DNA of 64,000 nt from Tubulanus polymorphus (lineage: Eukaryota > Nemertea > Palaeonemertea > Tubulaniformes > Tubulanidae). Location of the stretch: contig NC_134026.1 of NCBI RefSeq assembly GCF_964204645.1, positions 4,712,001-4,776,000 on the forward strand. Direction: 5' to 3'. The notes under the pieces are model-generated. The model saw only the letters and a program-made list of their open reading frames with translations. It was not told the origin of the DNA and made no database searches. The translations under genes were made by a program, and so were the position numbers. Within the stretch, counting starts at the first letter, position 1. Each line of letters opens with the position of its first letter. Positions 13,250 to 61,255 of the stretch are shown piece after piece.

Positions 13250-14328
13250 CCTGGACTGCAATCGCTGATTAGATTAGGGTACCGGCGTTCAACAAACCGA
13301 CACAGCGACTCTACTACCACTGGTGGCCATTTGTAAACGTTTCCAAGGAATTAATCGTTGGGGAAATCCAAAATTTATTTCCGGGTTTGGTTAAGTCGAT
13401 CACATTTGTAAAATCTCGATAAATCTTATTGTTTTTTTTTCAAAATCTAATCAAAATATAAAAAGGCCAAGAGCTTAAGGATCTTTATTCAGTAAAAAAA
13501 GTCTCAGCCGCAGCTTTCCGCTTCCAGAAGGTGCTGCCACCTAGTAGAGGCGCTGAGAATGAACAGCTGATTTTGACAGGTGAAGCGTGACGCATGTGCG
13601 ATGCGTCTTAGCCCCATTATTACTCCAAATTTAAGCGTCGGTATGTTGTCAAAATGCTCTTCTAATAAATTACACAACCCTAATTTAACGTCAGGAGACT
13701 TCGCCTTAAGTAACCACACATGCTTAGGCCTACTGGCTTGGCATTTTTTTTGGATGGTTGCCGCTGACGACAGTCCGGGTCAATCTTCTTGGGCTACATA
13801 AGATTTTGTGGTCATGTAGCTTTTCATTCGGAAGGCGAAGCAACCAACTAACTAACTGTGGCTGAACCTGCGAAGTCGATGCCAGCCCTGAAGAAACCCA
13901 CCCCCTGAAATTAATGATGCCCAACCATGTGGCTTAACCGCCTGTAGCGCGAGGATGCATTGGTTTTGTTTTTAATTTGGTGGGGACTTTGGTCAGATTT
14001 TGAAGATCTGATGCTTCGATATGGCCTCTAAGCGATTTGTATTAATAAGGCTAGGTCTAACATGAAATTTAATAGGGTGTTATAATACTTTAATATTTCA
14101 GCTTAATATTTTTTCTTATGTCGAATTAAAGGAAGCAAAACTAAATTCATTTTGGGGGGGGGTTAGTGCTACGGGTTAACCATATCATTTCCTGGTCTTG
14201 CTTATTATTTGCTATACTACTCATCTCTAGACTGAATACCAGTCATTGTTACCGGTTTGTGAAACGGCGGCTAGGTACTAGACTATACTCTTCTCATGCC
14301 TACTAATATTTGACAGGTTGAATGCACG
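13250..14328. other. Divergent intergenic region between the coiled-coil gene and cyclin J
   Basis: Holds the two promoters and 5' UTRs. A possible acceptor (ttgacag) lies at about 14310-14316, just upstream of the cyclin J ATG, so cyclin J may have a 5' UTR intron. Several short ORFs here overlap on both strands with no splice context and look spurious. Confidence 0.4.
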
Positions 14329-16594
14329 ATGCTCGGAGACTGCTGGTGGGAGGACCCAGTGGCGAGCGATGTCCACAATACGCTACGCCAGAAAGAAAAA
14401 CATATAATGCCGTACCATTCGCATTCTCCACAAATCAATGCCCGGCGTTCATTAGTCGACTGGTTAGCTGTCATTTGCGATAAAATCGAGGTTTGCGTGA
14501 ATGCGAGACATTTGGCAATTCATCTGCTTGATTACTTCATGGATAATTTCGACATCGGACCTGATAAACTTCAACTGGTTGCATTCGGGAGTCTCTTAGT
14601 CGCAAGTAAGAAAAATTGGTCACCGTGTTTCTTTCTTGTTTTGAAAACAAATAAAGCAGGGGCAGATTTATGGGACTGGTCTCCTGCCTTCCCATTGATG
14701 TTGCCCTTTTTGTCAGATATAGTCAAAACCTGCTAATTTCACACTCATCGTCTCGAAATTTTAAGATGTGTTTAAGGATATATTCCTTCAAAAATATGTT
14801 GACACTGAGGGTGAAACCGACTAACCGACTCTTCTTTTCTGGACCCGCATTCTTAGCATTAACTCATTCTTGGAAATGCAGAGAACAAGCTTATGAATCA
14901 GTTTAATATTTTTCATTTTCCTGTAAAATCTCAGGGCAACTTGTCAATTTTAGGTCGGTGGGCATCCCCTGGCCCTGCACCCTCCCCTTGGATTCACCCT
15001 GAGAACCAGAAGTACAAGTGTAATCCTATAGCCGGCAGCCAACATGTTTTAAGTTTTTCTAACTTCAAGATTAAGACAGAAAAAACCATTTTGATGACTT
15101 AGAATCCAACCCTTATGACACATTCCACGTATATTTTATGAGGTCAAAATTATTCGTATTTTATTTAGGTAAATTTCAGCAAATGGATTGTCAGGTGTCA
15201 AGGTGGAAAACGTTGAATGGATTTTTAGACTCTCCTGGTTACACTTCCATCGAATATATGCAAATGGAACTCATGATTTTGGAATTTTTTCGTTGGAATA
15301 TTACGGCACCAACTGCCGCTGATTTCGGACCGTACTACATGGTTGCGTCGATGTTGGATAATAGTTGCCCTGGTGATGATACTCACGGTGATTATCGAAG
15401 GAAAGCTTTTAGTTTTTTGCAGAAATATATGGATTATTTCCTCGAAATAAGCCTACAGGGTGAGTGTTGGCGCAGTTTGTGAAAAACCTCAAAATCAGGA
15501 CAATTTGTTGAGGTTGCTAGATCGTTTCTGTCTATGTCTTACATATTTGACTGTTAATTGACTGGAACCAATTTGCATGTCAGGGATTAGTCAAGGAAAA
15601 GTCGGGGAAAAAAGCAAGTGAAATCAATTGAATCGTGTAACTGAAATGAACCGAACTCTTATATTTTCAGATTATATCTATCGATTTTATGACCCGTCAC
15701 TTGTAGCGGCGGCGTGTGTGGCTGCCTCGCGGATTTGTGTACGTCTAGTCCCAACATGGCCTCTGTGTATAGAAAAACTTACGTCGTACAATTGGGAACA
15801 AGTTTCGTCGGTTGTTGATTTCATGCTCAAGTAAGTTGCTCTTGATTTGTACGGATTTTTGAAAGTCTTGGAAGGTTTGGGAAAATTCTTTTGGAAAAGC
15901 TATGGAATTCTTTTTTCTCTATGGCTAAGGAAAAGGTATGGAAAATCAGAAAATGGTCTGAAATCAAATTTTCCTACTGTTTCTAATTTAAGGATATATG
16001 CTTAAACGCGTTACTACGCTTTGTCGATGGTATTGATATTTGGAACTAATTTACTTTGAATGGGCCTAAATTGCCTGTTCTAGGTTGGCAATGTGTGGGT
16101 ATGGAAATCTGGGTATGGAAAATTAAATTTGGAAACCCGTAAAAACCCTGTCATTGCTCGAGTTCATACTGAGATCGATGTATAAAGCTGATGAATATCA
16201 ATGAGTTACCTTAGTCAATACCTGTAGATCTTAATTTTGGATCTATTTCTTCATCATTAACAACTTGCAGAGTTTCTTTTTTTCAGAGCACTAAACGCCG
16301 ATGAAGAAAGTGCAAAACAACAAGATTTGCCAGAAAACAAGTCAAACTGTGATTCAAGTCCTGCAAGTAGTTGCTCCAACCATTCCTTAGGTAAAATTGT
16401 TGAAATTTAGTTGGAGTTTTGCTGAAACTATGTAAAATGAGGTTTAAAATATGCCTAATTCGTCAAATGTGCAATTATAAAACGTTAACTTTTGAAGTTC
16501 TAAGTGCATGTAGATTAGTTTGAAACCTTTTAAATTTTTAGGATCTGATGGCATGGGCGATACTTATGACAGAAATGGTGAAAGCTATGTGTGA
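14329..16594 (+). CDS. CCNJ: Cyclin J
   Basis: Five exons: 14329-14605, 15169-15459, 15671-15830, 16287-16390, 16542-16594 (TGA), 885 nt, 294 aa, all junctions in phase. The N terminus (about residues 1-30, with a WW pair and LRxKE) and the first cyclin fold (RRSLVDWLAVICDKIEVC, ARHLAIHLLDYFMD) match cyclin J as I recall it. The second fold carries the diagnostic PSLVAAACVAASRI and TWP motifs. Cyclin J is an atypical cyclin: in Drosophila it is ovary-enriched and binds Cdk partners, and its vertebrate roles are less settled. The C-terminal tail is short and Ser/Asn-rich. The ATG at 14329 is favoured because it gives the conserved N terminus; the ATG at 14322 is in another frame. A poly(A) signal AATAAA lies at 16836. 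Confidence 0.93.
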
Positions 16595-21600: not shown

Positions 21601-24600
21601 CCTGACCATAAACAGCCGACTTGTTGATCCATTACCTCATTACCGATTTGGAAATGACTAAAAATGAGAATTAAAACCTTCCTTCGATAATTTGAAAACC
21701 TTTAGATATCTCATTAGCCTAAGTCCTATTCCTATGTAAATACCATGATCCCACACCCAATGACTTATTGAATTGCGATTGTCAACTTACGTCACTTCAG
21801 CTCGCGATTCTACGTCGAAAATTTTGGCAGTTTTATCACCAGACACGGTTAGCACCTGTTTACTGTCCGGACTATAACAAACCTGAAAACAAGAACGGAC
21901 TATAGGTACTGCAAAATAAATCTTTTATCAGCGGGTAAGATTAATGTGTTTTCCTTTTATTTCAATCAACTATTTCAAACTACTATTGTAAAATATAAAA
22001 GGAGTACTACAGCAAATTTACCGCATATATTCCACCCTTGTGAGCTTTAGGAGAGCCCAGTTCTCCGATAACATCTCCAGTCTTACCATCATAAACAATC
22101 ACCTAACACAAATGAAAATTCAATTAAAAAACGAAATAAATAATAGAAGGTGGCCATTTGTTTCATTCCCCCATTCCGCAAGAAATTTTCTAATAAGACA
22201 GGTAAAATGATGCTGATTATCGGAAACTTACTTTTCCATCAGATCCACCAGATACATATGAAGAGCCATCGGGGGCATAGCGCACCGCATTAACAAAATT
22301 GGTATGTTCCTACAAATCGATAACAACAATAGTCTGCATTCATAGTCTGTGTTCTAAATTTGCATAATGGTACCATAGCCCATACACTATATATATACAC
22401 TATATATACATATAAATAAGTGACTAAAAAAAAAGAATATATCACCTTCGATGTGCCCTTGAATTTAAACGGAGGTCCTTCATAGAAACCGACAGTTCTA
22501 TCTTCCGATCCCGTGATGACCCGATATGGGCGACTTTTGCGCATGTCGACTGAGTTGATCGATTTGCTATGGCCGGTTATTTCACCCGTTGATGATCCGC
22601 TATCCCACAGAAATGCATTGGCATATCTGCAAATGAAAGTCACAGCGAATTGCAAATCATTGCGCAGATTGGACCGTCAGCTTTTTTATCGACGATCATA
22701 GGACTATAGCCTAGCGATACAATTATATTATACATCATTTCATATTAATTTCGCGTGTTTTTAAATAATGAATCTATAGAATAAATTTGAACTTGAATAC
22801 ATTGAAAAATTACAAAACCGCAAATTTGTAAATACATGCACAAACTAATAAATATTCAATGTAGATTTTTGCATATATAATTTCTACACTGATGTAAATG
22901 TTGCTTTTTTCTATAATTGACGGACTCTTAATTGTAAATAGTCTAATGTCATAATTTCACAGAGAAATATAGAGAATATTAAATTGAATTTGGATCAACA
23001 CTTGAAGTTCATACTCACTTCTCTCGGCCTTCACCTGCAACTACAATACGCTTGCTATCCTCTGACCAGCAGATATCCTTTATTTTGCCACTGAGAGGCT
23101 GATATTCATATTTCAGAATATGTTCCGCATTTACAGTATCCCAAATTCTTAGTTTTCCCGCCGCATCTGTCACAAGAAAAATAACAAATATTATGCAAAT
23201 AACGTTATCCGTGGATCCTCTTTTGACGGGGCAAAAGTTTTTCTCAGAATGAATGAAAATTATAAACCACAATCCTTTACCGCTATCATGGCTACCGGTA
23301 GGTATTAATTCAAAATTATTTCATTCCAAAGTTGTGTCATGAATTACAGGAGAATCCACTAATTATTTGGGACCATCAAGATAAAAAACAAGAAGCCTGT
23401 CGGCTTATATAGCTCCGCTGTCTTTGTTGTGGCTTGGAGCATAGACTATCACATCAGTATCTATTTGAAACTAGATGTTCAGGGACATTATAGCCACTTG
23501 GAGAAGGGCCACAATACCAATAATCATACTAACATACTCTAAACTGACAAACTGTTGGAACTGAAGTCATAAGTGGAACAAACTGTAGTCCCCAAGTATA
23601 GGCACCAAGTGAAATTTATCAAAAATCTATGCAATTGCTTCGATATAGAATGGCTCTATACTTTTGTAGGCACTCCCCAATAGATCATTCATATGAAGTT
23701 TGGTTGAAATCTACTGAAAACTGGAGTAGAAGTAGCAATTTAAGTGAAAATCTAAAAATAGCCCTAATTTGCATAATTTATGCAAAATCAAAAGTATGGC
23801 TCTATACTTTTGTAGGCACTCCCCCATACATCATTCGTACCAAGTTTGGTTGATATCTACTGAAAACTGAAGTAGAAGTAGCGATTTAAGTGAAAATCTA
23901 AAAATAGCCCTAATTTGCATAATTTATGCAAAATCAAAAATATGGCTCTGTACTTTTGTAGGCACTCCCCCATAGATCATTCATACCAAGTTTGATTGAA
24001 ATCCGCTGAAAATCGATGGAGGAGTAGCGATTTTAGTGAAAATCTAAAAATAGCCCTAATTTGCATAATTTATGCAAAATCAAAATTATGGCTCTGTACT
24101 TTTGTAGGCACTCCCCCATAGATCATTCATACCAAGTTTCATCAAGATCCCATCAGAACTGTAGGACTAGTAGGGATATAAAGAAAAAGTTGACGCCGGA
24201 CACCGAACACCGAACGGACGGACGACGACGACGAACCCCCTAACCCATCAGCTCCGCTGACCTTCGGTCACAGCGGAGCTAAAAATTTACGGGAAATCCG
24301 GATCATAAGTCATTTTCTCGTAAGTTGATGGACAAAAGGACTGAAATATTGACCGGATTAGACCAGAATCCAGATTAAGCAGGTTTGCGCTTCTCCATAC
24401 CGGTAATTGTGGGCGAAGTAGGCTTATTGACATGCTACACCACGCCCCTATCCTCTGAACCTTCCTTCGACAGTCAAACAAATAGCAATGTCACTTGTAC
24501 AATCTCTACAGGAAAATAACAGTCAAAAAGATGACAAATGCCGACTTCAAAATCAGCACGTACCTCCAGACGCAATATAGAATCCACTTGGTGAATACAT

Positions 24601-34260: not shown

Positions 34261-34769
34261 TTAACACTCTACAAACACCGCCCCCTACCTTACACATACC
34301 ATACCAACATCACTACTACACATCCTCACTCGCAAAGGTCTGGTTGCCTTCCGCTGAAACTCACAAACACTGATCAAACTTGTAACTGCGTGGCTCATGT
34401 CGGTCGCTAGGTCCATAGCGCACACATCGACAGCAACTGAGATGTGTAATCTAGCAAATATTCTCAGGGCAACTCGAATCACGTGACAAATTGCTTTGTT
34501 TTAGTCCGTTGCAACCATGTGTTGTTGATTATAGAGTGCCCACATTGACGGATATGACAGCAACTGAGTACAACTAGTTGATCAAAAGTAGAACATGGGC
34601 AACTGGGTGGAACTTGAGATAGATGGACACTAACCAATCGTAAGCTAACTCACACTGATTGTATCCAGCCAGTTCCTCTCGCGCGCTGAAAACTGCCCGG
34701 CAACTAGTTGTCTCCAATCGCTGTGTCAATGTAGGCTTTAGACCACTGCCAGGCGAACAGGTCACTGCC

Positions 34770-35165
34770 AAGGGTCGGGTGGGTTGCCGTGTTGGCAAAC
34801 AGGTGGTCACTGCCAGGGGTCGGGCGGGTGTTGAGTGGGTGGGTTGCCGTGTTTGCAGACAGGTGGTCACTGCCAGGGGTCGGGCGGGTGTTGAGTGGGT
34901 GGGTTGCCGTGTTGGCAGACAGGTGGTCACTGCCAGGGGTCGGGCGGGTGTTGAGTGGGTGGGTTGCCGTGTTGGCAGACAGGTGGTCACTGCCAGGGGT
35001 CGGGCGGGTGTTGAGTGGGTGGGTTGCCGTGTGGGCAGACAGGTGGTCACTGCCAAGGGTGGGGCGGGTGTAGAGTGAGTGGGTTGCCGTGTGGGCAGAC
35101 AGGTCACTGCCAAGGGTCGGGCGAGTGGAGAGTGGGTGGGTTGCCGTGTGGGCAGACAAGTCACA
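34770..35165. repeat. 60-bp minisatellite, about 6.5 copies
   Basis: The unit 'ggtggtcactgccaggggtc' + 'gggcgggtgttgagtgggtg' + 'ggttgccgtgttggcagaca' repeats with exact 60-base period, the middle copies identical. Because 60 is a multiple of three, every frame stays open and produces long repetitive ORFs on both strands that are not genes. It is strongly G-rich on the plus strand. Confidence 0.95.
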
Positions 35166-35398
35166 GCCAGGTCACATGATTAGACCTTGACCCTTGACCT
35201 GTGGACAGCTCAGACAAATACAATGATTTCCTGTGATGTTTTTTTCCCGATCTGGAACTTAACTTACTCTTTATCGAAGTTTATTGAAGGATATTCGCCA
35301 ACAGTAAAACATGTACCCCTCATTGTGACTGGCATAATGGTAGTCGATTAGAGTTTTCGCTTACCGAGGGTCCAACACAAGAATAATGTATATTTCCA

Positions 35399-39163: not shown

Positions 39164-41917
39164 TTAAGACGATGGCACAAACCCTTTCGTGAATTTTGCA
39201 TCCACCGGGAACGTCATGGCAACACTGTTGCAAAGACTTGGTCTTCTTTGCGTTTCATTTGGCTTAATACTATTTCGTCGATTACCCTGAATCACTTCAA
39301 CAGATTTTGCCGATGCAGTGTCTATTTTCTCAGTTGGTCTAGTAGGAGTAACTGTACTGCATAAAGCTGCGGATGAATCTGTTTCGTTACGGGAGTCTTT
39401 GTCTCTGTTTCGGCGAAGAACGGGTTGCCTACGTTTTTCAGTTGAGTTATTAGTTGTATTATTGAACGTACCCACTTTGATCGGAATATTGTTAGGTGCG
39501 GAGTGGATGTCAGGTAAATGTAGAGGTTCCGTAGAATTGATATTCAAATTTCTATACGAATCACGACGCTGATTTGAATTTAATTTATCTACTCTTAGAT
39601 GAAGGAGTTTTAGAGCTCTTAGTAATATTTTCTCTTTTTTCATCAGTCTCTCTGTCAATTCTTTCCAAGAATAATCCTTATTGCTTAACGCCGATTCCAC
39701 ATATCGACTGCAGGTTGGACTAGCGTCATTTATGTAATCGATCGTGTCGTCGATGGCCAGTAAGATATTATCCATGGTTTCAAAAGCCAACGCTAAATGG
39801 CTCCTCTCGACGGTGGATTCTTTTCGTAGTTTTTTCACTACATCTGGTAGATTACAAACTGATGCGTCTTCCGGTCCAGCCATGTATAACAAGGCGTCGC
39901 GCAAGTCTGACTCTCTCCGTTCAATTTCATCCGCACGACGCTCACCCATCCGGGATTTGAAGAGAAGGCGGTCCACACTCTTTTCAAGCACGGACATTCT
40001 CATCATGTTTTCGAATTCTTTTGAATCCGATTCATCAATTTGGTCCTCGTTGAAAAACTCGTGGATCCGAACATTCAAGCGTTGTATTTGACTATCGAAT
40101 ACAGTTAATCGTTCTTTTAGCCGCCTTATTTCGTTCTCACCTGCCATCAAGGCCCGACACATGCGATCTAGGTCAGCTTTTTTGGTTTTCTTTAAACATT
40201 CGATTTCTGCCTTCAGACTCACTATTACTCTGTCCTTTTCTTGAACCAATTGTCTTTCGGCTGAGACATTCCCCTTTAAGTCGTTAACCTATAAGGTGTC
40301 AAAGAAACAGCGGATCGGATACATCAATTTTACATATGAAATTTTATTTTGTGGTTTTGTGTTTCTCAATTAATCTTCTCTCATTCTTTGAAATCCAAAA
40401 AGAAATATACATAGACAAAGAACAAAAACCTCTTTATTCTTCCTGTTAATCGCATCGCAGTGCTTCGTCGTGTGTTCAACCAATTCCGACCTGGCTTCCA
40501 GGATTAGTTCTTTGTCGGTTCCCACAGACATCCAGTCTATACGAATGTGTTCCTCTTTAATCTGTAAAAACCCCACGGAATATTACGAGATTAGTTTGCG
40601 ACATTTCTAGTTCAGACCAGCTTTTGTTTTGATAAATTCATTTCGTTTTTCGTTACTTTTTCTTTGATGTAATCGGATAGTTGTTCTTTCACGGCTTTGG
40701 GCAGTAATCTTTCTAACGAAGGGATTTTTCTGAAAACGTCTGAGCCGTCAGTGGAAGGCATGGCTACAATGAATTGATTTAAAATCGGTAAATACATTTT
40801 ATGTAAGTGTATTGCACAATCTTAAAAAAGATTATTTGAAAAAAAAACCGTTTCAACGTCATTCATAATCTTTTCTTAAACAGCCTACTGATTTACTGTA
40901 ACTACGGAGGCGTGGTGGCCGATTATAAAATTGATTTCTTTAAAAGAGTTGTTTTCAACACGTCTTGCAAACAATCAGTTGATTTAAGCGCCCAATTGAA
41001 AACAACTTGTAGGTCATAAAAAGGTGAGGTCCTGGAAAACAACTTTTAGTTGCTTTCAGGCTCTAATCCTGAAACAATTGGTTTGATTTCAGTACCTTCT
41101 GAAATTAAATTGTTCTCAGCACACGCTAAAACAACTTTGCATCCAGGAAATAACTAAACTAAACTGTCACTAAAAGTTGTTTCCAGGATCTACATAAAAC
41201 ACCTCAGTGAGAGCCAAACCCAACTAATCGGTTTCAACGGGTGCTGAAAACAGCTTTTTTAGACAACTTTGGTCCGCATCAGCTATCTCTTATTAACGTA
41301 GGCACGTCATTATTTGACTTCAGTTCTCTTTCGAAGTGATGGGACAAGAATTTCAACCGTTATCGCCCTACCATAATTTCTGATATGGTCGCTGAGGTAA
41401 ATGTGTCCTGATTGGTGGAGTACATCTATGAATTTATCAGCAGACGACGAACACGTGACTCGCAGTAGGCTTAACAGGGTGCGATTTCTTTCTTCTCGGT
41501 TGGAAGCAGACTTCAATAAAGCAATCCAATATCATTATTAAAGACCGTTTCTATTAGATCGACAATCTGCGGTATATTCAGTTATCTACTGTTGGTTAGG
41601 CTTATCCGCGATCAGAAAATAATGCACAAAAAGTGGTTTTCAAGAAATCATCAAAAAGATATTCATTCCAAATATAGGACTAGAAAGTATCGAAATGAAA
41701 CAATCGCCGTGGTCATATACCGTTACTCTTTTTACCAATGAATCTTTGGCCTACTTACGTTAACCTCTTGAATCATTGTTTCCGTTAAAATGTGGTACTT
41801 CCGTAACAACGTCTCAAATGTGGGCGTCCAAATCATATTGTTGAGTAATAATATATGATTGTCATCCAGAACTTGCAAACCTGTCTTTTTCCCCCTTTCA
41901 AGACGTCTGGTGGACAT
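39164..41917 (-). CDS. CARD and coiled-coil protein, 566 aa
   Basis: Five exons on the minus strand: 41917-41759 (ATG), 41510-41372, 40763-40618, 40561-40430, 40288-39164 (stop), 1701 nt with all phases consistent. Residues about 12-99 read as a caspase recruitment domain: a helix with LLNNMIW, then LLRKYHILTETMIQEVN, then NRTLLSLL and ADKFIDVLHQSGHIYLSDHI, the usual CARD pattern. A linker helix (about 100-190) leads into a coiled coil (about 193-290), a second helical block, and a basic Ser/Thr/Asn-rich, probably disordered tail (about 420-566). CARDs assemble signalling filaments in apoptosis and innate immunity. CARD-plus-coiled-coil recalls CARD9/CARMA scaffolds, but no MAGUK part is present and orthology is not claimed. 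Two donors (GTCTGA, GTTTTT) are weak. It lies about 0.5 kb downstream of the Ig gene, same strand. Confidence 0.8.
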
Positions 41918-42402: not shown

Positions 42403-42560
42403 TTATTCACATATACTATGATTACAAGAAACGTGTTCAACGCTACATTGTTCAACGACTCCCATTACATATGTACTAATCGTATTTCTTACTGGTATTT
42501 CAGCTATGGATTCGATTTCGCCAAACCTTAAAAATGAAGGTGATAATGGTCGACATTGAT
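42403..42560 (-). CDS. Terminal exon: degenerate Ig3 tail of the Ig-array gene
   Basis: The acceptor AAAACAG lies just beyond 42560. In phase with the preceding exon it encodes [14 protein letters not shown], a remnant of the last strand of an Ig3 domain ([15 protein letters not shown] elsewhere in the gene), and then a novel Cys-containing tail ending [13 protein letters not shown]. The two domain cysteines of a normal Ig3 are missing. AATAAA (minus strand, 42407-42402) overlaps the stop codon, giving a very short 3' UTR if used. Confidence 0.65.
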
Positions 42561-45500
42561 CTGTTTTAATATATGTGGTCACCATAAGCAAAATCCATTT
42601 TGTAACGTGTCTGTCTCCATGCAGTATGGAACAACGAATCAGTATTATTAGCCTATTAATCGACGCATGTCTTACCTCGAACATAAAGATTTGCAGGATA
42701 GGAATTAGCTGTTCCTACACTGTTCACTGCCATACACTCGTATCTACCCTCATCCGATTCTTGACTGCGTTCTATTTGAAGAATTCCTGAAGAAAAATAT
42801 AATTCACAATTTTTATTCTGACGATGATTTCTCTCACCCGGGCAGAGAAATTCCGACGAATCGAATGAAAGTGTTTGTTTACCCGAATCGAGCAAAGTCA
42901 ATCGTGGATCAGTCGTATCTAGCGGAACCATATCTCTCAACCAAATAATCTGTGGTTTCGGGTTCCCTGTGGCTTCACATATCATCACCGTATCGTGGGC
43001 TTTCTCGACTGCTTTTAAGCTTGGGTTTTTCGTGATTCGTGGAAACCCATTTGGCAATGCTGCAAAAAGGATCTTTTTATGTCAACAAATGTTATTATAT
43101 ATTCATGATAAATAGAAACGAACAAAGAAGATACAATATGATGCACTACATTCGCCTTACGGGAATTTTTTGCGAAAACGGACAAACTTGCTGATCGCTC
43201 AACTGTTGGGTCAATATCACTCCTGATTTCACAGGTTATCGTTGCACCGTTATCAAATCTCGCTTTCACGGGATCAATCCTGAGAACAGATCCGCCAGGG
43301 ATGTCAATGATCACGTATCTTGACCTTTGAGGAACGCGTAATCGATTTTTGTACCAACGAATTTTTGGTTCTGGGTTTCTTGGGGTTTTGCAAAAGAACG
43401 TAGCGACTTCTCCATCTTGCACCTTTTGATCTTGTGGATTTGTACTGATTCCTGAAACGAACAAATATGATCCTACCAAAAACAACTAAGCAGGGAAACG
43501 ACAGATAGAAATTACACACATTAATTAGAAACTGATCAAATGTGTTTTTGCAGCAAACAATGATTAATTCAGAATTTACTGATATTCGAAGCTTTTCCAA
43601 CTTCTAAATAATTTGTGTCTTGTTTTATTAAGTTTATACCTTTCACTCGTATTTCAGCTACAGATTCAATTTCTCCCAACGTTGAAGCAGCTACGCAAGT
43701 GTAATTCGCTGATTTCTGTACATTCGTTAGCATCAATACGTTTCTACCACTCGGAATTTCATCTTCATTGGTCAGATCTTCCGAGCCTTTTCGCCATTTC
43801 ACATAAGGCATTGGTGAACCAGTGGCAACGCATGTCAAATTAACAGACTCTCCGGCGAAGGCATCGGCGCTTTCTGGCTCGATAATGAATCTTGGTGGAA
43901 TCCTGCGCACTGAAAGGATGGACATCCCGGGATATCTAAGTCTCGTGATGTAAACGTAGCATGAAATCGATTTTTGTGATTAACATAGAATTACATGTAA
44001 ATATGTTAAAACACATCAATCGCATGCATACATATTGTAATATCGTATCATAACTAACCTCGAACATAAAGATTTGCCGGATAAGAAGTAGCTGTTCCTA
44101 CACTGTTCTCAGCAATACACTCATATCTACCCTCATCAGATTCTCGACTGCGTTCTATTTGAAGAATTCCTGAAGGAAAACATGATTCAAGTTATTTCTT
44201 CTGAAGATATATCTCTCTCACCAAGAGAAGAGAAATTCCAGCGAAATGATACCTATCTACCTGAATCGAGCAAAGTCAATCGTGGATCAGTCGTATCTAG
44301 CGGAACCATATCTCTCAACCAAATAATCCGTGGTTTCGGGTTCCCTGTGGCTTCACATATCATCACCGTATCGTGGGCTTTCTCGACTGCTTTTAAGCTT
44401 GGGTTTTTCGTGATTCGTGGAAACCCATTTGGCAATGCTGCAAAAAGGATCTTTTTATGTCAACAAATGTTATTATATATTCATGATAAATAGAAACGAA
44501 CAAAGAAGATACAATATGATGCACTACATATTTTGCCTTACGGGAATTTTTTGCGAAAACGGACAAACTTGCTGATCGCTCAACTGTTGGGTCAATATCG
44601 CTCCTGATTTCACAGGTTATCGTTGCACCGTTATCAAATCTCGCTTTCACGGGATCAATCCTGAGAACAGGTCCTCCAGGGATGTCAATGATCACGTATC
44701 TTGACCTTTGAGGAACGCGTAATCGATTTTTGTACCAACGAATTTTTGGTTCTGGGTTTCTTGGGGTTTTGCAAAAGAACGTAGCGACATCTCCATCTTG
44801 CACCTTTTGATCTTGTGGATTTGTACTGATTCCTGAAACGAACAAATATGATCCTACCAAAAACAACTAAGCTAGGAAACGACAGATAGAAATTACACAC
44901 ATTAATTAGAAACTGATCAAATGTGTTTTGCAGCAAACACTGATTTAATTCAGAATTTATTGATATTCGAAGCTTTTCCAACTTCTAAATAATTTGCGTC
45001 TTGTTTTATTAAGTTAATACCTTTCACTCGTATTTCAGCTACAGATTCAATTTCACCCAATGTCGAAGAAGCTACGCAAGTGTAATTCGCTGATTTCTGT
45101 AGATTCGTCAGCGTCAATACATTTCTGCCAACAGGAATTTCATCTTCATTCGTCAGTTCTTCAGAGCCCTTTCGCCATTTTACGAATGGCATCGGTCTTC
45201 CAACGGCAACGCACGTCAAATCTATGGACCCTCCCGCAAGAACATCAGCACTTTTTGGTTCGACACTAAAACTAGGTGGCGTATAGCGCACTGAAAATAG
45301 ATTATTTCTAATAACGTGAGAAATATAAATCTGACTTATCAGAATACATCGTTTAATTTCTTATAGACTACGATTAATCAAACAGCGATTTATGAATGAT
45401 ATTGACAGAACAGTATATTACGAACTTCGACGGAGGTACTAAATGAACTAATATGATAATCGTCAACGGACACGTCGTAATGTATGGGGGACCAGATACT

Positions 45501-48500
45501 ATATAAGTATCGTATATGGCTGCAGTATGGGATGACGAATAGATATTGAGCTACATCAGCCTAATTCAGCCTATCAGGGACGACGAATCAGTATCAAGCT
45601 CCATCAGCCTACTTGATCGATGCATGACTTACCTCGAACATAAAGATTTGCCGCATAGGAATTAGCTGTTCCTACACTGTTCTCTGCCATACACTCGTAT
45701 CTACCCTCATCCGATTCTTGACTGCGTTCAATTTGAAGAATGCCTGAAGAAAATATCATTTACAATTTTTATTATTAAAATTTTTCTCACCCGGGCAGAG
45801 ACATTCCGACGAATCGAATGAAAGTGTTTGTTTACCCGAATCGAGCAAAGTCAATCGTGGATCAGTCGTATCTAGCGGAACCATATCTCTCAACCAAATA
45901 ATCTGTGGTTTCGGGTTCCCTGTGGCTTCACATATCATCACCGTATTGTGGGCTTTCTCGACTGCTTTTAAGGTTGGGTGTTCAGTAATCCGTGGAAACC
46001 CACTCGGCAACGCTGGAATGTAGACAAACGAGATTAATATACTATGATTATCTTCGACACTCGAATTCAGGTGAAAATATAAACGGCAATCCAAACGCGT
46101 GAAATCTAAAGCAAAGGAAAATGAGATTGCCTTACGAGAATTTTTGGGGAATACGGACAAACTTGCTGATCGCTCAACTGCTGCACCAATACCGTTACTG
46201 GCTTCACAGGTTATTGTCATGTTATCATCTCCCACATTCACAGGATCAATCCTTAGAATAGATCCACCAGGGATGTCGATGACCGAGAATGGGCTTGACC
46301 TATGGTGAATATGAACATGTTTGGACCAATGGATCGTTGGCTTCGGATCTCCAGCAGCTTTGCACACGAACATAGCGAAATCTCCATCTTTCACCTTCTG
46401 ATCTCGAGGAGCGAGTGTGATGGAAACTGAAGTATGATCACAACACAAAGGCAAAGATTATCATCCCCAGGACGACTGCGTAGATATCAAATAAATATCT
46501 CCATGACACATCATTATATATCTTAGATAGGTTCTTTTGTAATTCTAGACCTAAGGTTACTGATTTAATATTGTTCGTTATATTTCAAGGCTTTGTGATA
46601 CGTATTCTTGGTGGGATGAATACCTTTCACTCGTATTTCAGCTACAGATTCAATTTCACCCAATGTCGAAGAAGCTACGCAAGTGTAATTCGCTGATTTC
46701 TGTACATTCGTCAGCGTCAATACATTTCTGCCAACAGGAATTTCATCTTCATTCGTCAGTTCTTCAGAGCCCTTTCGCCATTTTACGAAGGGCATTGGCG
46801 ATCCGATAGCAACACATGTTAAATTTACAGACTCTCCCGCAAGAACTTCTATGCTTTCTGGTTCGATTTTGAAACTAGGTGGAATCTTGCGTACTTTAAG
46901 AAAATTATTTCTGATAAGTAGAATATGATATCACATAATGAATACAATATTAGTCCTAATTTCCTTTTTAATGGATTAAAAAAATTCACATCAATCAAAA
47001 CTAGAGGCGCCACATTAATTTGTGATTTATGAGTCTTTCATTTTATCCTAATAAGCTGTGAAATATGGGTATTTGAACGCACAAGAATAACGAATGCAAA
47101 ATATATCAAAATTGACCTGAAAGAATTTTTTGTAGCGACAATGCCATTGATTCTGAGAAAATACGTGAATACGGCAGGCTTACCTCGAACATAAAGATTT
47201 GCCGGGTAGGAAGTAGCTGTTCCTACACTGTTCTCTGCAATACACTGGTATTCACCATCATCCGATTCCTCGATCCGTTTTATTTGTAACGACCCTGCAA
47301 CGGAAGGACATCGAGGCCTTTTCAATCTTAATTGATTTTAGACGACCCAACTTGCAATAACTTAGCACTCGTCTTAGCAGGCAAATTAAGCTTCTATCAA
47401 TAAGCATTCGAAAAGAAATTGCACAGATGACTCAGACGTATACCTGAATTAAGCAAAGTCAATCTTGGATCAGTCATATTGACAGGAATCCTATCTTTCA
47501 GCCAAGTAATCTGTGGTTTCGGGTTTCCTGTGGCTCGACATATCATCACCGTATTGCGGTATATTTCGACTGCTTTTAAGACTGGGTTCTCAGTGATTTG
47601 TGGGAATGCTGGAATTAAGAGAACAATCAGTGACGACAGCTAACAATGATAAAAGGCATATTGGTTTATTCGAGGCAAGCAATAGGCCTAGGTCGATTGG
47701 ATTGGTCTAGGTCTAGGTTATTACGAACTTCGACGGAGGTACTAAATGAACTAATATGATAATCGTCAACGGACACGTCGTAATGTATGGGGGACCAGAT
47801 ACTATATAAGTATCGTATATGGCTGCAGTATGGGATGACGAATAGATATTGAGCTACATCAGCCTAATTCAGCCTATCAGGGACGACGAATCAGTATCAA
47901 GCTCCATCAGCCTACTTGATCGATGCATGACTTACCTCGAACATAAAGATTTGCCGCATAGGAATTAGCTGTTCCTACACTGTTCTCTGCCATACACTCG
48001 TATCTACCCTCATCCGATTCTTGACTGCGTTCAATTTGAAGAATGCCTGAAGAAAATATCATTTACAATTTTTATTATTAAAATTTTTCTCACCCGGGCA
48101 GAGACATTCCGACGAATCGAATGAAAGTGTTTGTTTACCCGAATCGAGCAAAGTCAATCGTGGATCAGTCGTATCTAGCGGAACCATATCTCTCAACCAA
48201 ATAATCTGTGGTTTCGGGTTCCCTGTGGCTTCACATATCATCACCGTATTGTGGGCTTTCTCGACTGCTTTTAAGGTTGGGTGTTCAGTAATCCGTGGAG
48301 ACCCACTCGGCAACGCTGGAATGTAGACAAACGAGATTAATATACTATGATTATCTTCGACACTCGAATTCAGGTGAAAATATAAACGGCAATCCAAACG
48401 CGTGAAATCTAAAGCAAAGGAAAATGAGATTGCCTTACGAGAATTTTTGGGGAATACGGACAAACTTGCTGATCGCTCAACTGCTGCACCAATACCGTTA

Positions 48501-50162
48501 CTGGCTTCACAGGTTATTGTCATGTTATCATCTCCCACATTCACAGGATCAATCCTTAGAATAGATCCACCAGGGATGTCGATGACCGAGAATGGGCTTG
48601 ACCTATGGTGAATATGAACATGTTTGGACCAATGGATCGTTGGCTTCGGATCTCCAGCAGCTTTGCACACGAACATAGCGAAATCTCCATCTTTCACCTT
48701 CTGATCTCGAGGAGCGAGTGTGATGGAAACTGAAGTATGATCACAACACAAAGGCAAAGATTATCATCCCCAGGACGACTGCGTAGATATCAAATAAATA
48801 TCTCCATGACACATCATTATATATCTTAGATAGGTTCTTTTGTAATTCTAGACCTAAGGTTACTGATTTAATATTGTTCGTTATATTTCAAGGCTTTGTG
48901 ATACGTATTCTTGGTGGGATGAATACCTTTCACTCGTATTTCAGCTACAGATTCAATTTCACCCAATGTCGAAGAAGCTACGCAAGTGTAATTCGCTGAT
49001 TTCTGTACATTCGTCAGCGTCAATACATTTCTGCCAACAGGAATTTCATCTTCATTCGTCAGTTCTTCAGAGCCCTTTCGCCATTTTACGAAGGGCATTG
49101 GCGATCCGATAGCAACACATGTTAAATTTACAGACTCTCCCGCAAGAACTTCTATGCTTTCTGGTTCGATTTTGAAACTAGGTGGAATCTTGCGTACTTT
49201 AAGAAAATTATTTCTGATAAGTAGAATATGATATCACATAATGAATACAATATTAGTCCTAATTTCCTTTTTAATGGATTAAAAAAATTCACATCAATCA
49301 AAACTAGAGGCGCCACATTAATTTGTGATTTATGAGTCTTTCATTTTATCCTAATAAGCTGTGAAATATGGGTATTTGAACGCACAAGAATAACGAATGC
49401 AAAATATATCAAAATTGACCTGAAAGAATTTTTTGTAGCGACAATGCCATTGATTCTGAGAAAATACGTGAATACGGCAGGCTTACCTCGAACATAAAGA
49501 TTTGCCGGGTAGGAAGTAGCTGTTCCTACACTGTTCTCTGCAATACACTGGTATTCACCATCATCCGATTCCTCGATCCGTTTTATTTGTAACGACCCTG
49601 CAACGGAAGGACATCGAGGCCTTTTCAATCTTAATTGATTTTAGACGACCCAACTTGCAATAACTTAGCACTCGTCTTAGCAGGCAAATTAAGCTTCTAT
49701 CAATAAGCATTCGAAAAGAAATTGCACAGATGACTCAGACGTATACCTGAATTAAGCAAAGTCAATCTTGGATCAGTCATATTGACAGGAATCCTATCTT
49801 TCAGCCAAGTAATCTGTGGTTTCGGGTTTCCTGTGGCTCGACATATCATCACCGTATTGCGGTATATTTCGACTGCTTTTAAGACTGGGTTCTCAGTGAT
49901 TTGTGGGAATGCTGGAATTAAGAGAACAATCAGTGACGACAGCTAACAATGATAAAAGGCATATTGGTTTATTCGAGGCAAGCAATAGGCCTAGGTCGTA
50001 AAGCTCTTCTATTTACTGGCCAAAATATTCTATAAAGGCAGGAACGGGTCTTAAATGAACTGATTTTAATGTCACTGATTTAACAGAATCAAACTCACAG
50101 TCGTCGGTATTTGTCGACGTAACCACCATCAACAAGACAGCGAGTAGAACCGATCTGATCAT
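42403..50162 (-). CDS. Secreted protein with 14 LAR-type Ig domains, 1389 aa
   Basis: The minus-strand ATG at 50162 opens a signal-peptide exon (50162-50099, hydrophobic LLAVLLMVV). Exons that follow: 49911-49747, 49597-49487, 49196-48927, 48729-48439, 48315-48139, 48046-47936; the same six shifted by 2303 (47608-47444 to 45743-45633); 45290-45021, 44832-44542, 44437-44261, 44169-44059; 43909-43640, 43451-43161, 43059-42883, 42786-42676; 42560-42403 (stop). The sum is 4170 nt in one frame, and every intron is phase 1. Domains match Ig1 ([14 protein letters not shown]), Ig2 ([10 protein letters not shown] ... YPANLYVR) and Ig3 ([30 protein letters not shown]) of LAR-family receptor tyrosine phosphatases. 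Order: 2-3-1-2, 2-3-1-2, 3-1-2, 3-1-2, partial 3. There are no FN3 repeats, transmembrane helix or phosphatase domain, so it is probably secreted. It may be a soluble adhesion molecule or decoy of LAR ligands (inference). Confidence 0.88.
42676..43909 (-). repeat. Ig3-Ig1-Ig2 tandem unit D
   Basis: Four exons (43909-43640, 43451-43161, 43059-42883, 42786-42676) repeated from the unit at 44059-45290 with a shift of about 1380 bases. The intron between the Ig1 and Ig2 exons is almost identical in the two units, so the duplication or a conversion event is fairly recent. Confidence 0.85.
44059..45290 (-). repeat. Ig3-Ig1-Ig2 tandem unit C
   Basis: Partner of the unit at 42676-43909. The Ig1 exon differs by only a few residues (for example GGP against GGS), while the Ig3 exon is more diverged ([18 protein letters not shown] against [18 protein letters not shown]). 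Exon boundaries and phases are the same. Confidence 0.85.
45418..47698 (-). repeat. 2.3-kb tandem duplication, copy B (Ig2-Ig3-Ig1-Ig2)
   Basis: Matches 47721-50000 base for base with a shift of 2303, introns included. The one difference I noticed is 45997 a against 48300 g, which changes Phe to Ser in the Ig2 exon. The junction between copies is a short 'gattggattggtctaggtct' filler at about 47699-47720. Confidence 0.93.
47721..50000 (-). repeat. 2.3-kb tandem duplication, copy A (Ig2-Ig3-Ig1-Ig2)
   Basis: Proximal copy, directly after the signal-peptide exon. It carries exons 49911-49747 to 48046-47936. The near-identity with copy B makes it either a very recent expansion or an assembly artefact from two haplotypes; the phase 1 junction between the copies is open in frame. 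Confidence 0.93.
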
Positions 50163-50953: not shown

Positions 50954-51880
50954 ATGGCAACAACGTCCACGCCGAACAGTTCGAAGAAATCATTCCATTT
51001 CCCGCTGTTGAAGCGTTTCAAACGTAAGAAATCTACCGCAGTTCTGGAGCAGCAGCAGTGTAGGAACTTTGCGGGATCTTGTGAAAGTATCAGTTCGTTT
51101 GATTTGGCCATATCTTCGCCTGCGTCACTGAAAAACGCCCAAAACGTCAGGGTAATGGAAACTAATGATGTAAGTGTGGTGCTGCTCGATGAACCACACT
51201 CACCTGGAATAAATTCTCACGGTCAACAAATGATAACACCAAAGATGTTCCGGATATTTGCAGCTGGTAAACGCTCCGGGATGAATTCGAAAAGTCGACT
51301 TACCGAACTTCTGGCATCAACTGAAAAAAAGCCGAGTGTATCGAAAGTCGACTACCAAAGAAATCTTTCGATGGATGTGGACGAAAATATTCAAGCTTCC
51401 GCATCATTCGAACAAAAGTATTCTATAACGGATATAAAATGTGAAATGCAAAAGAAAAAGTTCAACAAACTGCGAACGAAGTTGTCGAATTTAAAAGCGA
51501 AAGACCGCGCGATCGTAGAAAAGTTTAACGAACTTCGGCAAAAACGTGAAACACTTCGTCAACGGAATAAAAGTGTAGATTCACCGATAAGAGCGAGACC
51601 GTATCCCAGTCCGGCTCAACTCCGACAGAATTGGCACCAACAGCAGCGAGCACGGCGTTGTCGGTCTGGAAGTGACTTGTCGTTTGTGCTGCCATCAAAC
51701 TCCCCAATACGTTCGGATAAAGGCGACGTTTCGTCGAAATTGCGCAGATCAGTCACCGAATCAGTGATATTTTCTCCGATCAAAACAGACGCTGATGTCC
51801 AGTCATCACGCAAGGCATTCCGGCCTGCTTATAGACCCATTACAGTGATTAAGGATGGCATTAAATTGACTATATGTTGA
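50954..51880 (+). CDS. Intronless 308-aa basic protein with SP motifs and a coiled coil
   Basis: Uninterrupted ORF from ATG at 50954 to TGA at 51880, with AATAAA at about 51966. It begins with a basic patch (SSKKSFHFPLLKRFKRKKS), has a helical Lys/Arg/Glu-rich coiled-coil stretch (about residues 155-208) and three SPI(R/K) motifs (DSPIR, NSPIR, FSPIK) that look like proline-directed kinase sites. No signal peptide or membrane segment. Composition is less AT-driven than the flanks, and the length and nearby poly(A) signal support a real single-exon gene. No family recognised; a retrocopy origin is possible. It is head-to-head with the Ig-array gene. Confidence 0.65.
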   Translation: MATTSTPNSSKKSFHFPLLKRFKRKKSTAVLEQQQCRNFAGSCESISSFDLAISSPASLKNAQNVRVMETNDVSVVLLDEPHSPGINSHGQQMITPKMFRIFAAGKRSGMNSKSRLTELLASTEKKPSVSKVDYQRNLSMDVDENIQASASFEQKYSITDIKCEMQKKKFNKLRTKLSNLKAKDRAIVEKFNELRQKRETLRQRNKSVDSPIRARPYPSPAQLRQNWHQQQRARRCRSGSDLSFVLPSNSPIRSDKGDVSSKLRRSVTESVIFSPIKTDADVQSSRKAFRPAYRPITVIKDGIKLTIC

Positions 51881-56104: not shown

Positions 56105-58809
56105 TATCATTCTGGCTAATTACTCCACATCTCATAGAGTACTAGATTACTTGAAGCCGTATTGAATCCACTGGAATAAAACTCCGTTACCGATGAAATC
56201 CTTTTGGCGTGGACAATCCAGATTATACGTAAAGGCCTGCATTTAGTATTTTTTTGCGCTTCGCAAATGTTCGTAGTTCTTACGCTTTAACTAGAACAGT
56301 ACTGACAGTAACGGCTTAGACGAATTCAGCGCATTTTCCTATTTGTATATGGAGGGATGCATTTAGCTGATTGTCTGTGACCGGATGATATTAATGTCTC
56401 CTGCATCGTAAATGCGACTGTTCGAAAAGAGGCGATGACGGAATAGAACGAGATGCATATCGTGCAAATGGAAGAAAAACCGTCGTCTTGTGCCAGCATT
56501 ACGTAACTCGGAATTGATTCCGAGATGAAATAATCGCGCTGACTGTCTTCGGTTTGCTGATAAATCTGGTTGAGTAACCACGTTAAAGCGTTCGATTTGG
56601 TGTATAGTATACTTAAATGGATAGCGTACATGACAATGACTGTAATTTATTAACTAATGAAAACCGCCTCCTTTTTCTGTTGAAAATATCGAGAGAAATG
56701 ATTACAAAATCTTCGTAGTCGATGGACATTCGTCGAAGGTTCATCTTCAGTATAAAATCGAAGAATAGAACATGTTTCGGTGAAATCAGGCGTGCTCGTG
56801 ACATTGACAGGGTCCCATAAAAATACAAATATAGCCTAATCGAGGGCTGTCTTTTTTCCCAGTATAATGGTATATACATGTATATATAAGTAGGGGTTTT
56901 CTTCTCCTTTCGTATATTCATGTACATGAATAATTTTTGTGCAAGGAGTTGCTCTCAGAATATCCGAACTATGATGCACAATCGTCGAGACTATATGGCG
57001 AGGAGGTCACGACGTACGATCCTCGAGCCCGTTTGTTTTTTGCACGAAGTGACCGGTTGCATCGATGATGGTGATGCCGTGTGTTCAACGATGTCGCTTA
57101 TCGCGAACTCGATGCGGTTACGATCTCTACTGTGCATTCTGCGCCTTTCCACTGCTGCTGCTAATGCTGCCGCTGCTGCGTCGAATTCACGTGTTCATGA
57201 TGGCGACGAGGACAGTGTTTATACTTGCGCGTCTTCGCCTTATCAATGCAGCCGACTGTGTAATGAAATTTGCAACGAATTCACTCACCCGTGTTCACGG
57301 GGCCTTATCTGATCTAGTCGTCCGATCTCACCATACGCCCGTTACATAAATAGGCAATGATAAAACGGGCGGTTGGTTTGTGTATATCGTGATAATGAAT
57401 GAACAACGGAGAGCGGTAACGAAACATGAAATTCGAGTTTCGTATTTTCATCTCTCGTATTTTCAATTCTATCATATTGGTTATCATTTCAGTCAATTTG
57501 ACATACGATTCACTCCCAGACTTCTAGATTTCCCGATTTGAACCGTGAATCGGTGCACCGAGATTCCATCGCTGTCCGAGATATAGAGATCCGACCTGGA
57601 CCCGCTTTCACAAAAAGATTAATTGAATTCGTCAAATCGATCTAACTTTTTCTAGTTGAATTTCAAACCAGTTTAACTATAGAGTTTAAATCTTAAATCG
57701 ATTATGGATTTAAACTTTATTGTGAAACCTGGTCAAGCCTGGACCAGGGACTGTATTCTAAATCTTTTATCGCGTGTATCTGTTCTACATCACGTATTAA
57801 TAAAATTTTTCATAATAAAAATCATTGACTTTCGTCAGGTTTTTTTTAGTAAGAATGCTCGCGTGCACTTCTGACAGGTATCTGTAGTGACGTGTATCCA
57901 TTAGCTTGGATGCAATGAGAATTACACTAAATCTAATTGAGTGTGTACATCACCGCGCGCATGTGGGTTGTCATTATCTACAGTGGGTGTAATCAGGATA
58001 TGCCGCGCAAATCCGGATTAAACGCTGAAATTAAGAAGTGACATTCTCAGATTTGAATTCACCACGGCGACTGTCTAACGCAGATTTGAATTTGCATTAC
58101 ACAGATATCTCGTTGATGAAGAAGGGGTGCAGAGACATTTTTATCGTGAATATCTGTCGACAGGCTGATATGCATTTTAATGGCTCTTCTACCACCTGCT
58201 CGGTGGATTCCGAGCTGAAATCATATTCAATTTTAGAAAATCTAGTCCAATTTCTATTCACAGCTATGGCTCGTTATAATTTTAATACGAAATTCTAATT
58301 TCAAACTGAAACATCTAATATAAATCTACTTTTTGCCATCATTTATATTTCGAGTATGCCTGCAAGGAGTCATTGTCGTGAAATCGAAGGATACCGTTGA
58401 TAATGTGAAACGAATCGACTCGTATTACCATAAGTATCTATAATACCATTTTTACCTAATTGATAATTCTAGAAAATGCTGGAATGATTTTGTTCAATTT
58501 CTATTTTCTTGCGATGGCTTGATGCATGTATTCAATAGAAAAAATAAGCTACCCGTTGACTTGTGACTAATGACGTAAATGTCAGCATTGAAGAAATTCA
58601 TGAAACATGATACATTGTCTGTCATCTGGCTTTTAACATGATTGCGCTGTGGACTGTGTCTTTGGAAAGTTGATATCAGAGAGCTGACATCGAGCTATCT
58701 TCGATATATTTTTGATCTGCTCTTTTCTCGTTTCATCCACGCCGCAGCGATCTATTCACTGGCTGAAATAGCTGTGATTCGTTGCGCCTAGATCGACAAC
58801 AAATTGCTG

Positions 58810-58811
<2 letters not shown>

Positions 58812-58890
<79 letters not shown>

Positions 58891-58969
58891 GTACGTACGT
58901 ATATATATATACGTACGTACGTACGTACGTACGTACGTACGTACGTACGTACGTACGTACATACATACA

Positions 58970-58997
<28 letters not shown>
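58812..58997. repeat. Compound (TA)n-(TACG)n-(TACA)n microsatellite
   Basis: About 75 bp of TA repeats pass into cgta tetranucleotides and then into cata tetranucleotides. The Tyr/Ile/Thr/Val-repeat ORFs on both strands are artefacts of this tract. Confidence 0.97.
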
Positions 58998-59002
<5 letters not shown>

Positions 59003-59205
59003 TCGTATTCCTTGCTAATCAGTTTCGTATATCTCTTAAATCTAAGTCGTCCGATGTTCGTTCGTGGACTGTGGACGACCGCTATCCCGATCGCAGACGG
59101 TTTAGGATTTCGAAACAATTCTTCGGTTCATTGGTACGTTACCTACTTAACATGTGTATATATGTTTAGATATACATATACATACACTCCACACTTTTCT
59201 TGTTC

Positions 59206-59357
59206 AGGGCCGTATTTAGGAGGAGGGGGGACTTGCATCCCAGAAATTTTGGAAAAGTGCCCTTTTTGCAAATATTATTGTTATATCCAGTACAACTGCC
59301 CTTTTTCGGATATTTCTGACCCCCTTCCCCTAACTCAAATGCTTGGTACGGCCCTGA
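59206..59357. mobile_element. MITE with CAGGGCCGTA ends, copy 1
   Basis: Starts cagggccgtatttag and ends tggtacggccctg. The inverted ends share CAGGGCCGTA. The interior is short and G- or C-rich near the ends. No ORF of note. Confidence 0.65.
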
Positions 59358-61255
59358 TATCTGGTATTGTAGCGTAGCCAAATGAGAACCATTTAATGCC
59401 GTTTGACACGAGATATACATTTCGTTTGTCATTATTTTCTAGCGCACGTTTCGCTGGTGGTGCATGATTAATATAGATTTTCTGAATACAACAAGATGCG
59501 AGTGCTGGGAAATTGTGTGACGAATTGTATCCATTTTGATCGATTGTTGTCCCAGGGTTTGAAAAATAAGCCTTTTTTATTGTGCACCGCGCTAAAACCG
59601 TGATTTATCCATCAAGTAGGCTGTCTATGAGATAGGTATATAGCGAGATCATCCATTGCCGCGTGTGACGGTTGGCCCTGAAATGACAAGATATTTAGGG
59701 TGTTCAGCTTCCGTATTTGAATTTCGAGAACCGTTCATATTTTGGATAAAAGATGTTCCACTTATGCGATTGAACACGTGACACTCTTGCTGATGAGTTG
59801 TCGAATCTGAATTCATTTTAAAATCTGAATTTTTATTCCGTAGTAAATTTTGTTTATAGTTGAAATTATTCCTGAGTGTGTGTCTCTCTCCCTCTCTCGC
59901 TCTGACTACCGTCGAATCCTCGGCATTTTAAGCTGTCGTCATAAATTGCCGCGACGTCTGACAAGCACGAGATTAAACGACTTAGCAATTATTGATGACT
60001 GCCGTTATTTAGGATTAAAACTCGTCTCTGGGAATTTACCGCGAAATCATTTGTTACGAACAGAGAATTGAATGCGTATCGCCCGGGACGAATCGGGGAC
60101 AAAAATGAAATACCTACCCATTCCACGGTCTACGCTAATACCCAATGCTAACCTCGGTAGAGCTATGCGCGTGATCTAATCTTTTAATCCTAAGAGCTGC
60201 GGATTCTTTGTCGTATTCGGTATATTGAATTACAGTCAACAGTTTTTTTTTCTGAGAACGGAACATTTGTATCTTGTCTCGGAACTAGTCAAGATAAACC
60301 CTCGATATACCAGGTAACTAGTAGGTGACTAACGGAATGTAGGATATTTACCGGGGGATTATTACTTGTCACAACACCACTATACTCTCCGATAACGCCA
60401 CAATCCTGTATCGCCGATGTGGATGGTATTTTATCCATGGTTTGACTAGTTTTAACAATTTCCATATACTTAGATCTCCTTATAAACAAACTCACTTGCA
60501 AAGGGTAAGAAAATAATTTGTGATCAAATTCATGTTTATCGTGTTCAAATACGATGTTTAAAACATTGTCTTTCTAGACATTGTCTACATTTACGTCTAG
60601 CAGCATCAGCGGGTCATCATTCTGATGTATACGTCATCCAACATTTATGGTAATTCGGACCTTATCTTCACAGCCAGGCTTACCGTAGTTATGAATATAA
60701 ACTAAGGGATAGACATATTTCTTAGGATCCAATCGTAATATCAAGACGGATTACTTTCCTACCGTCATGCTCAACAGTCTGACACAACATTCTTAGCTGT
60801 GAATCTTATGAAATATTAATCGAAATTTCTCGATTCTGCGACGCACGCATTTGAGATTTGGACCTCAGTTTTTCCGGATGCAGTCCCAGTTCCACATCGT
60901 GATGTAGTCGGTAATCTTGCGGTGGTGCGCCGAACTGTATCTAGGATTTCAGGTTTGTATGCAACAGGTGGTCAAATGAATTACCATACGATTATTTAAT
61001 TACGATATTTGTTATCTAATTATCTCGAATGGAATGAGACCGAATCCCATGGCGATACATAGCTTTGCTATTGCAGTTTATTGACCATCAGAGATAGGCG
61101 GACGCGTGGAGAAAGGGATGGATGACAAATAATGATAGCGGGTGAAGGTCTACATTATTTTCAAACGCTGGTTTTCAGTCAAAAGGTATAAAATACATAA
61201 TGCGCTGATATTGAACAGTTTCATACGTAAGTAAAACTTCATTGAAACAACCACA

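Follow-up and report, generated by a model that had tools for sequence, protein, structure and literature searches.

How the ligand-binding part of a receptor phosphatase might come to stand alone as a gene, in many copies and with no phosphatase attached, is the question raised by a locus of the nemertean Tubulanus polymorphus. It lies in a window of 64,000 nucleotides (nt; positions 4,712,001 to 4,776,000 of contig NC_134026.1, NCBI RefSeq assembly GCF_964204645.1), the minus strand of which, from 50162 to 42403, carries an array of immunoglobulin (Ig) domains of the Ig1, Ig2 and Ig3 types of LAR-type receptor protein tyrosine phosphatases (LAR-RPTPs). On balance, and with some confidence, we favour the reading that this array is a LAR-derived protein-coding gene, most likely for a secreted, multivalent Ig protein that would compete with or bridge the membrane receptor.

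The gene was rebuilt from the minus strand using GT-AG splice sites. The model has 22 exons (exon 1, 20 Ig exons and a terminal exon), and its joined frame of 4170 nt encodes 1389 amino acids and a single stop, with no internal stops; the continuous 1389-residue frame proposed in a first-pass annotation was right to the base in both coordinates and length. All 21 introns are GT-AG, 91 to 342 nt long and in phase 1, in agreement with the uniform phase claimed there. Exon lengths recur exactly, with 270 nt for Ig3, 291 nt for Ig1 and 177 + 111 nt for Ig2 (165 + 111 nt for Ig2a), and the donor of exon 1 is strong (ACT/GTGAGT, phase 1). The parts of the array, with the basis of each main assignment in brackets, are as follows.

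50099..50162, minus strand: exon 1, with start codon and signal peptide (splice sites; hydrophobicity)
47719..49998, minus strand: block A, comprising Ig2a, Ig3, Ig1 and Ig2b, a near-exact copy of block B (block alignment; exon model)
47696..47718, no strand assigned: 23-nt filler between blocks B and A (block alignment; junction sequence)
45416..47695, minus strand: block B (exon model; domain typing)
47608-47444 + 47294-47184, minus strand: block B Ig2a
46893-46624, minus strand: block B Ig3
46426-46136, minus strand: block B Ig1
46012-45836 + 45743-45633, minus strand: block B Ig2b
44059..45290, minus strand: triad C, with Ig3 at 45290-45021, Ig1 at 44832-44542 and Ig2 at 44437-44261 + 44169-44059 (exon model; domain typing)
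42676..43909, minus strand: triad D, with Ig3 at 43909-43640, Ig1 at 43451-43161 and Ig2 at 43059-42883 + 42786-42676 (exon model; domain typing)
42403..42560, minus strand: terminal exon, an Ig3-exon remnant of about 45 nt, then the stop (splice sites; alignment)

Two features of the model bear on the product. Only about 45 nt of the terminal exon align with the end of an Ig3 exon (score 45, the top of 100 shuffles being 27), and the array is therefore apparently cut inside a fourth Ig3 exon. The acceptor of this terminal exon is weak and its stop codon overlaps an AATAAA at 42407-42402; were the acceptor unused, the frame would stop six residues past the last Ig2, so that the product would lack an anchor either way. 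Within Ig2 of triad D (43059-42676, minus strand), the 96-nt intron is open and in frame, and a second in-frame donor (gtgaga) lies 45 nt downstream in A.Ig2b, B.Ig2b and D.Ig2, though not in C.Ig2. To judge from its position, this second donor could add 15 residues at the place of the vertebrate LAR meA insert.

The identity of the domains was assessed by comparing each whole domain, by blastp, with Ig1, Ig2 and Ig3 of PTPRD and PTPRS. There are 14 whole Ig domains with two cysteines each, and for 14 of 14 the best match is the LAR type that had been claimed (E 2e-11 to 1e-43), which bears out the 14 LAR-type domains proposed; as block A repeats block B but for one residue, these amount to about 10 independent domains. 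Identity to PTPRD/PTPRS is 52 to 66 percent for Ig2 and Ig3; for Ig1 it is 37 to 41 percent, in alignments of 63 to 79 residues. After the signal peptide the order is 2a-3-1-2b, 2a-3-1-2b, 3-1-2, 3-1-2 and the 3' remnant. Without the latest duplication, the annotation had read this as 2-3-1-2-3-1-2-3-1-2-3'; both that order and its 1-2-3 register hold, with the correction that the final 3' is the short remnant described above and not a domain.

Longer stretches and junctions point the same way. The in-order Ig1-Ig2-Ig3 stretch formed by B.Ig1, B.Ig2b and C.Ig3 matches PTPRD at E=5.3e-82, its top non-LAR chain being Robo2 at 2.8e-53. Pfam described the first 396 residues as plain I-set/Ig_3 domains in four stretches. 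The PTPRD insert ESI aligns to the intron inside Ig2, and ELRE to the Ig2/Ig3 junction; passages of PMC8711739 give these as the mini-exon insert sites meA (ESI) and meB (ELRE) of vertebrate LAR receptors, so that both micro-exon sites are matched by exon junctions of the array. The array contains four Ig1-Ig2 pairs, and in three of them the linker reads PLPxGFP, like human DQLPSGFP, the fourth pair having GSP. Two other origins were considered and rejected: a chance string of open reading frames (ORFs), ruled out by the E-values of the LAR matches, and descent from titin, Dscam, Robo or contactin, as 14 PTPRD/PTPRS chains rank first and Robo2 comes next, level with a two-domain Drosophila Lar chain.

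What follows the Ig domains in a LAR-RPTP was found nowhere in the locus, as the annotation had claimed. The signature HCxAGx[GS]R[TS] of the protein tyrosine phosphatase (PTP) domain is absent from all six frames of the 64-kb window. Among six-frame ORFs of at least 25 amino acids in the window, fibronectin type III (FN3) gave no match above chance (best E 0.2) and PTP a best phmmer E of 9.4, both with consensus queries and without a positive control for FN3 or PTP in this genome; an Ig3 query in the same search did recover the array. Direct continuation into FN3 or PTP exons within the window was accordingly discarded, there being no such match and another gene apparently starting nearby downstream. 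No transmembrane segment was found in the protein beyond the signal peptide, which is its most hydrophobic 19-residue stretch (mean Kyte-Doolittle 1.6; the next best, at 1.1, lies within an Ig domain), the signal peptide and the lack of an anchor both being judged by simple hydrophobicity alone, with no separate test for a glycosylphosphatidylinositol signal. On this showing the locus is not a LAR-RPTP, since the search of the window revealed none of the FN3 repeats, transmembrane segment and two PTP domains that define membership. By its predicted features, the product is most likely secreted.

The array did not grow as the annotation had supposed, by clean repetition of a three-Ig 1-2-3 cassette. 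It repeats instead in units of 3-1-2, of about 1381 nt, and of 2-3-1-2, of 2303 nt, and divergence is uneven within triads. Blocks A (47719-49998) and B (45416-47695) show one mismatch in 2280 positions, which alters an amino acid (GFP to GSP), and the 23-nt filler between them contains short repeats of a CTAGGTC motif from the adjoining sequence. For copies B, C and D, synonymous distances for Ig3, Ig1 and Ig2 are 0.24, 0.67 and 0.21 between B and C, 0.63, 0.71 and 0.13 between B and D, and 0.58, 0.03 and 0.10 between C and D. When identity between copies was profiled in 75-column steps, B and C rose from 0.79 to 0.99 within the Ig3 exon and fell to 0.47 in the following intron, C and D kept an identity between 0.96 and 1.00 all the way from the Ig3/Ig1 intron to within the Ig2 exon, and B and D reached 1.00 at the end of the N-terminal part of Ig2 (Ig2-N). 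Because identity changes so abruptly inside exons, patches were probably copied between units, and the history of the array is probably a mosaic of 3-1-2 and 2-3-1-2 duplications with patchy conversion or unequal exchange.

The Ig1-Ig2 pair, together with Ig3, forms the ligand-binding part of LAR-RPTPs. According to passages of PMC4239663, Ig1 and Ig2 of RPTP sigma form a V, and full-affinity binding of TrkC requires Ig1-3, the binding by Ig1-2 on its own being about fivefold weaker; passages there and in PMC5645493 also describe the binding of glycosaminoglycans to Ig1 lysines, in competition with TrkC. The glycosaminoglycan-binding lysines and TrkC-site arginines were taken from these two sources (PMC5645493, PMC4239663), and we mapped them ourselves onto the stretches NKKGKK and PLRTPRD. 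By that mapping, the four lysines of human Ig1 read K, N, L and R in the C and D Ig1 domains (two of four basic) and K, H, H and I in those of A and B (one of four), and the two arginines read K and F in C/D (one of two basic) and N and D in A/B (none). Counted together with its linker, Ig1 of the C/D type carries 16 basic and 11 acidic residues, and A/B Ig1 has 10 of each and five histidines. Binding to heparan sulfate, which the annotation had suggested testing, would fit these residues weakly and in at most half of the Ig1 domains.

The scenario that we favour for these observations derives the locus from the 5' end of a type IIa (LAR-type) RPTP gene, with its signal peptide and Ig exons, which would have been cut inside an Ig3 exon and would have lost the first Ig1, the FN3 repeats, the membrane anchor and the phosphatase domains. 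Repeated duplication and patchy gene conversion of the symmetric phase 1 Ig exons would then have enlarged it into a gene for a secreted, elongated, multivalent LAR-Ig protein with four Ig1-Ig2 pairs. By binding to LAR ligands, or to proteoglycans of the matrix, this protein would act as a competitor of the membrane receptor or bridge it.

A less likely alternative is that the locus is a decaying partial LAR duplicate, a leftover 5' part with little or no transcription whose duplications are neutral turnover. The missing first Ig1 and truncated last Ig3, the near-identical recent A/B duplication and the change of a conserved residue in one Ig2b copy are all what such decay would leave. Against it stand the 20 of 20 Ig exons that are open with GT-AG sites, ratios of non-synonymous to synonymous substitution (dN/dS) well under 1 in Ig2 and Ig3, and the low probability that the frames would have stayed open under neutrality. 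Among diverged copies, dN/dS lies between 0.13 and 0.38 for Ig3, between 0.23 and 0.44 for Ig2, and between 0.48 and 0.51 for Ig1 (pairs B-C and B-D); Fisher tests of synonymous against non-synonymous changes gave P values, uncorrected for several tests, of 6e-10 (Ig3 B-D, dN/dS 0.13) to 0.0095 in diverged pairs, and 0.022 for Ig2 C-D. In a neutral, substitution-only simulation, the probability of the frames staying open was 0.004 for Ig3, 0.006 for Ig1 and 0.009 for Ig2. The low dN/dS and the frames open throughout argue for past function. Several observations nevertheless weigh against the gene that we propose, or at least against its present activity. Gene conversion between copies blurs the dN/dS and simulation figures, which are hence approximate, and the recent copies (Ig1 C-D, P=0.22; Ig1 A-B, identical) are too similar to show present constraint. 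Some of the constraint could go back to a former stage in the history of the gene, and for that reason present function is likely, not proven. Like a broken copy, the gene has no Ig1 ahead of its first Ig2 and finishes in a remnant; Ig1 has retained only part of its basic ligand surface; an AlphaFold model of Ig1 from a two-sequence alignment (mean predicted local distance difference test score, pLDDT, 39.4) is too poor to use; and the gene is known here from the genomic sequence of one locus.

The remaining alternatives change the product or the copy number. The newest block could be an assembly duplicate, in that the A/B duplication would be a haplotype or repeat error and the real gene would have 10 Ig domains, arranged as 2-3-1-2-3-1-2-3-1-2. 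Such an error would affect copy number only and would not conflict with a secreted LAR-derived protein; we regard it as a real if minority possibility. The single difference across introns and exons, and the odd order 2b-2a found solely at the A/B junction, are what such an error would produce, whereas the filler between the copies, with its local repeat motifs, looks like the outcome of end-joining repair, and the frame is continuous through the junction. It is much less probable that the array provides a functional LAR receptor with an alternative 5' section, its exons being spliced to FN3 and phosphatase exons beyond the window. In their phases and junctions the exons are consistent with LAR, and the searched sequence ends with the window, but the 42.4 kb of the window downstream of the array hold no FN3 or PTP match (with the queries and the limits given above), another gene apparently starts about 485 nt downstream and would have to be skipped, and the last Ig3 exon, which in LAR normally leads into FN3, is mostly gone. 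No more credible, and if anything a shade less so, is the idea that the product is a polyprotein from which separate modules are released by cleavage between Ig2 and Ig3. One furin-type site, RVRR, does occur at the C.Ig2/D.Ig3 junction, and passages of PMC4239663 describe a potential furin motif in the same linker of RPTP sigma, often cleaved in crystallisation trials; the site is kept, however, at only one of four Ig2/Ig3 junctions, the others reading RVRK (twice) and RVRY.

A secreted LAR-derived array would differ from each known system that it resembles. With LAR-RPTPs (human PTPRD, PTPRS and PTPRF, Drosophila Lar and C. elegans PTP-3, the last not itself compared) it shares the Ig1, Ig2 and Ig3 types and their order, the Ig1-Ig2 and Ig2-Ig3 linkers and the meA/meB junctions; by contrast, no FN3, transmembrane or phosphatase part was found in the locus, there are 14 Ig domains instead of three, the array starts with Ig2, and its Ig1 has diverged, with basic residues partly lost. 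LAR ectodomains are shed, according to titles cited in PMC8711739, and Ig domains of PTPRS have been used as inhibitors, according to the abstract of PMC12427967. Like these shed or engineered ectodomains, the array would supply a soluble LAR Ig part able to compete for ligands, but the soluble form would in this case come from a gene of its own, in which the ligand-binding part is present several times over. Ig-coding exons are also tandemly duplicated in arthropod Dscam, as the abstract of PMC3236188 describes; the Dscam duplicates are mutually exclusive alternative exons, whereas those of the array are all in phase 1 and can be spliced in series. Among the titles and opening lines of abstracts listed by searches of an open-licence library, we found no description of an Ig-only LAR-derived gene. 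The D Ig3 exon had no relative in viral and prokaryote contigs (25 and 138 pattern stretches, none confirmed), as expected of an animal gene.

A bolder version, which we put forward only tentatively and think improbable, is that of an independent, rapidly turning-over secreted array. Conversion would hold the copies of Ig2, and of the second half of Ig3, close to one another. Ig1, the domain that faces the ligand, has meanwhile split into two types, that of A/B rich in histidine and that of C/D rich in arginine, and individuals differing in copy number would secrete different multivalent decoys or recognition molecules; the second Ig2 donor could give further variants.

The gene that seems to start downstream of the array, likewise on the minus strand (from 41917 to 39164), encodes a CARD (PF00619, E=3.7e-7), a match obtained from two exons joined by hand, neither of which matched Pfam alone. 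Beyond the CARD exons lies a 374-codon open frame (39164-40288, minus strand) that by eye looks like a coiled coil. Passages of PMC5978004 report invertebrate CARD-coiled-coil proteins only alongside Bcl10, and Bcl10 as absent from Ecdysozoa; the CARD gene may bear on this reported co-occurrence.

Elsewhere in the window, on the other side of the array and about 790 nt from its start codon, a divergent open frame of about 300 codons (50954-51877, plus strand) has no Pfam match at E 0.01 or better. An ORF at 22293-22676 (minus strand) is a WDR1/AIP1-like fragment, matching WDR1 at 3.7e-23, with 85 bits to chain 9qfq, which we take to be human WDR1, and 69 bits to chain 1nr0, presumably C. elegans AIP1. 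A cyclin N-terminal domain (PF00134, E=7.9e-12) is encoded at 14314-14733 on the plus strand. Tandem repeats occupy 34577-35179 and about 58736-59374, one of them reading CLPTRQPTHS in minus-strand translation, and there is microsatellite sequence reading YIYIYI / RTYVRTYV. No tRNA was found in the window, and nothing in it matched Rfam at gathering scores.

LAR receptors are well-studied synaptic and axon-guidance receptors, and how their ligands, soluble and membrane-bound, compete with one another is a live question. Should the locus prove to be a dying partial duplicate, it would be an example of exon turnover and little else. If the reading favoured here is true, a gene encoding many copies of the ligand-binding Ig domains, and no phosphatase, would supply a decoy or bridging molecule of natural origin, and with it a way of asking which surfaces of the Ig domains are conserved in evolution after signalling is lost. 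The locus is also a clear candidate for the conversion of a receptor ectodomain into a free-standing secreted gene via duplication of symmetric exons.

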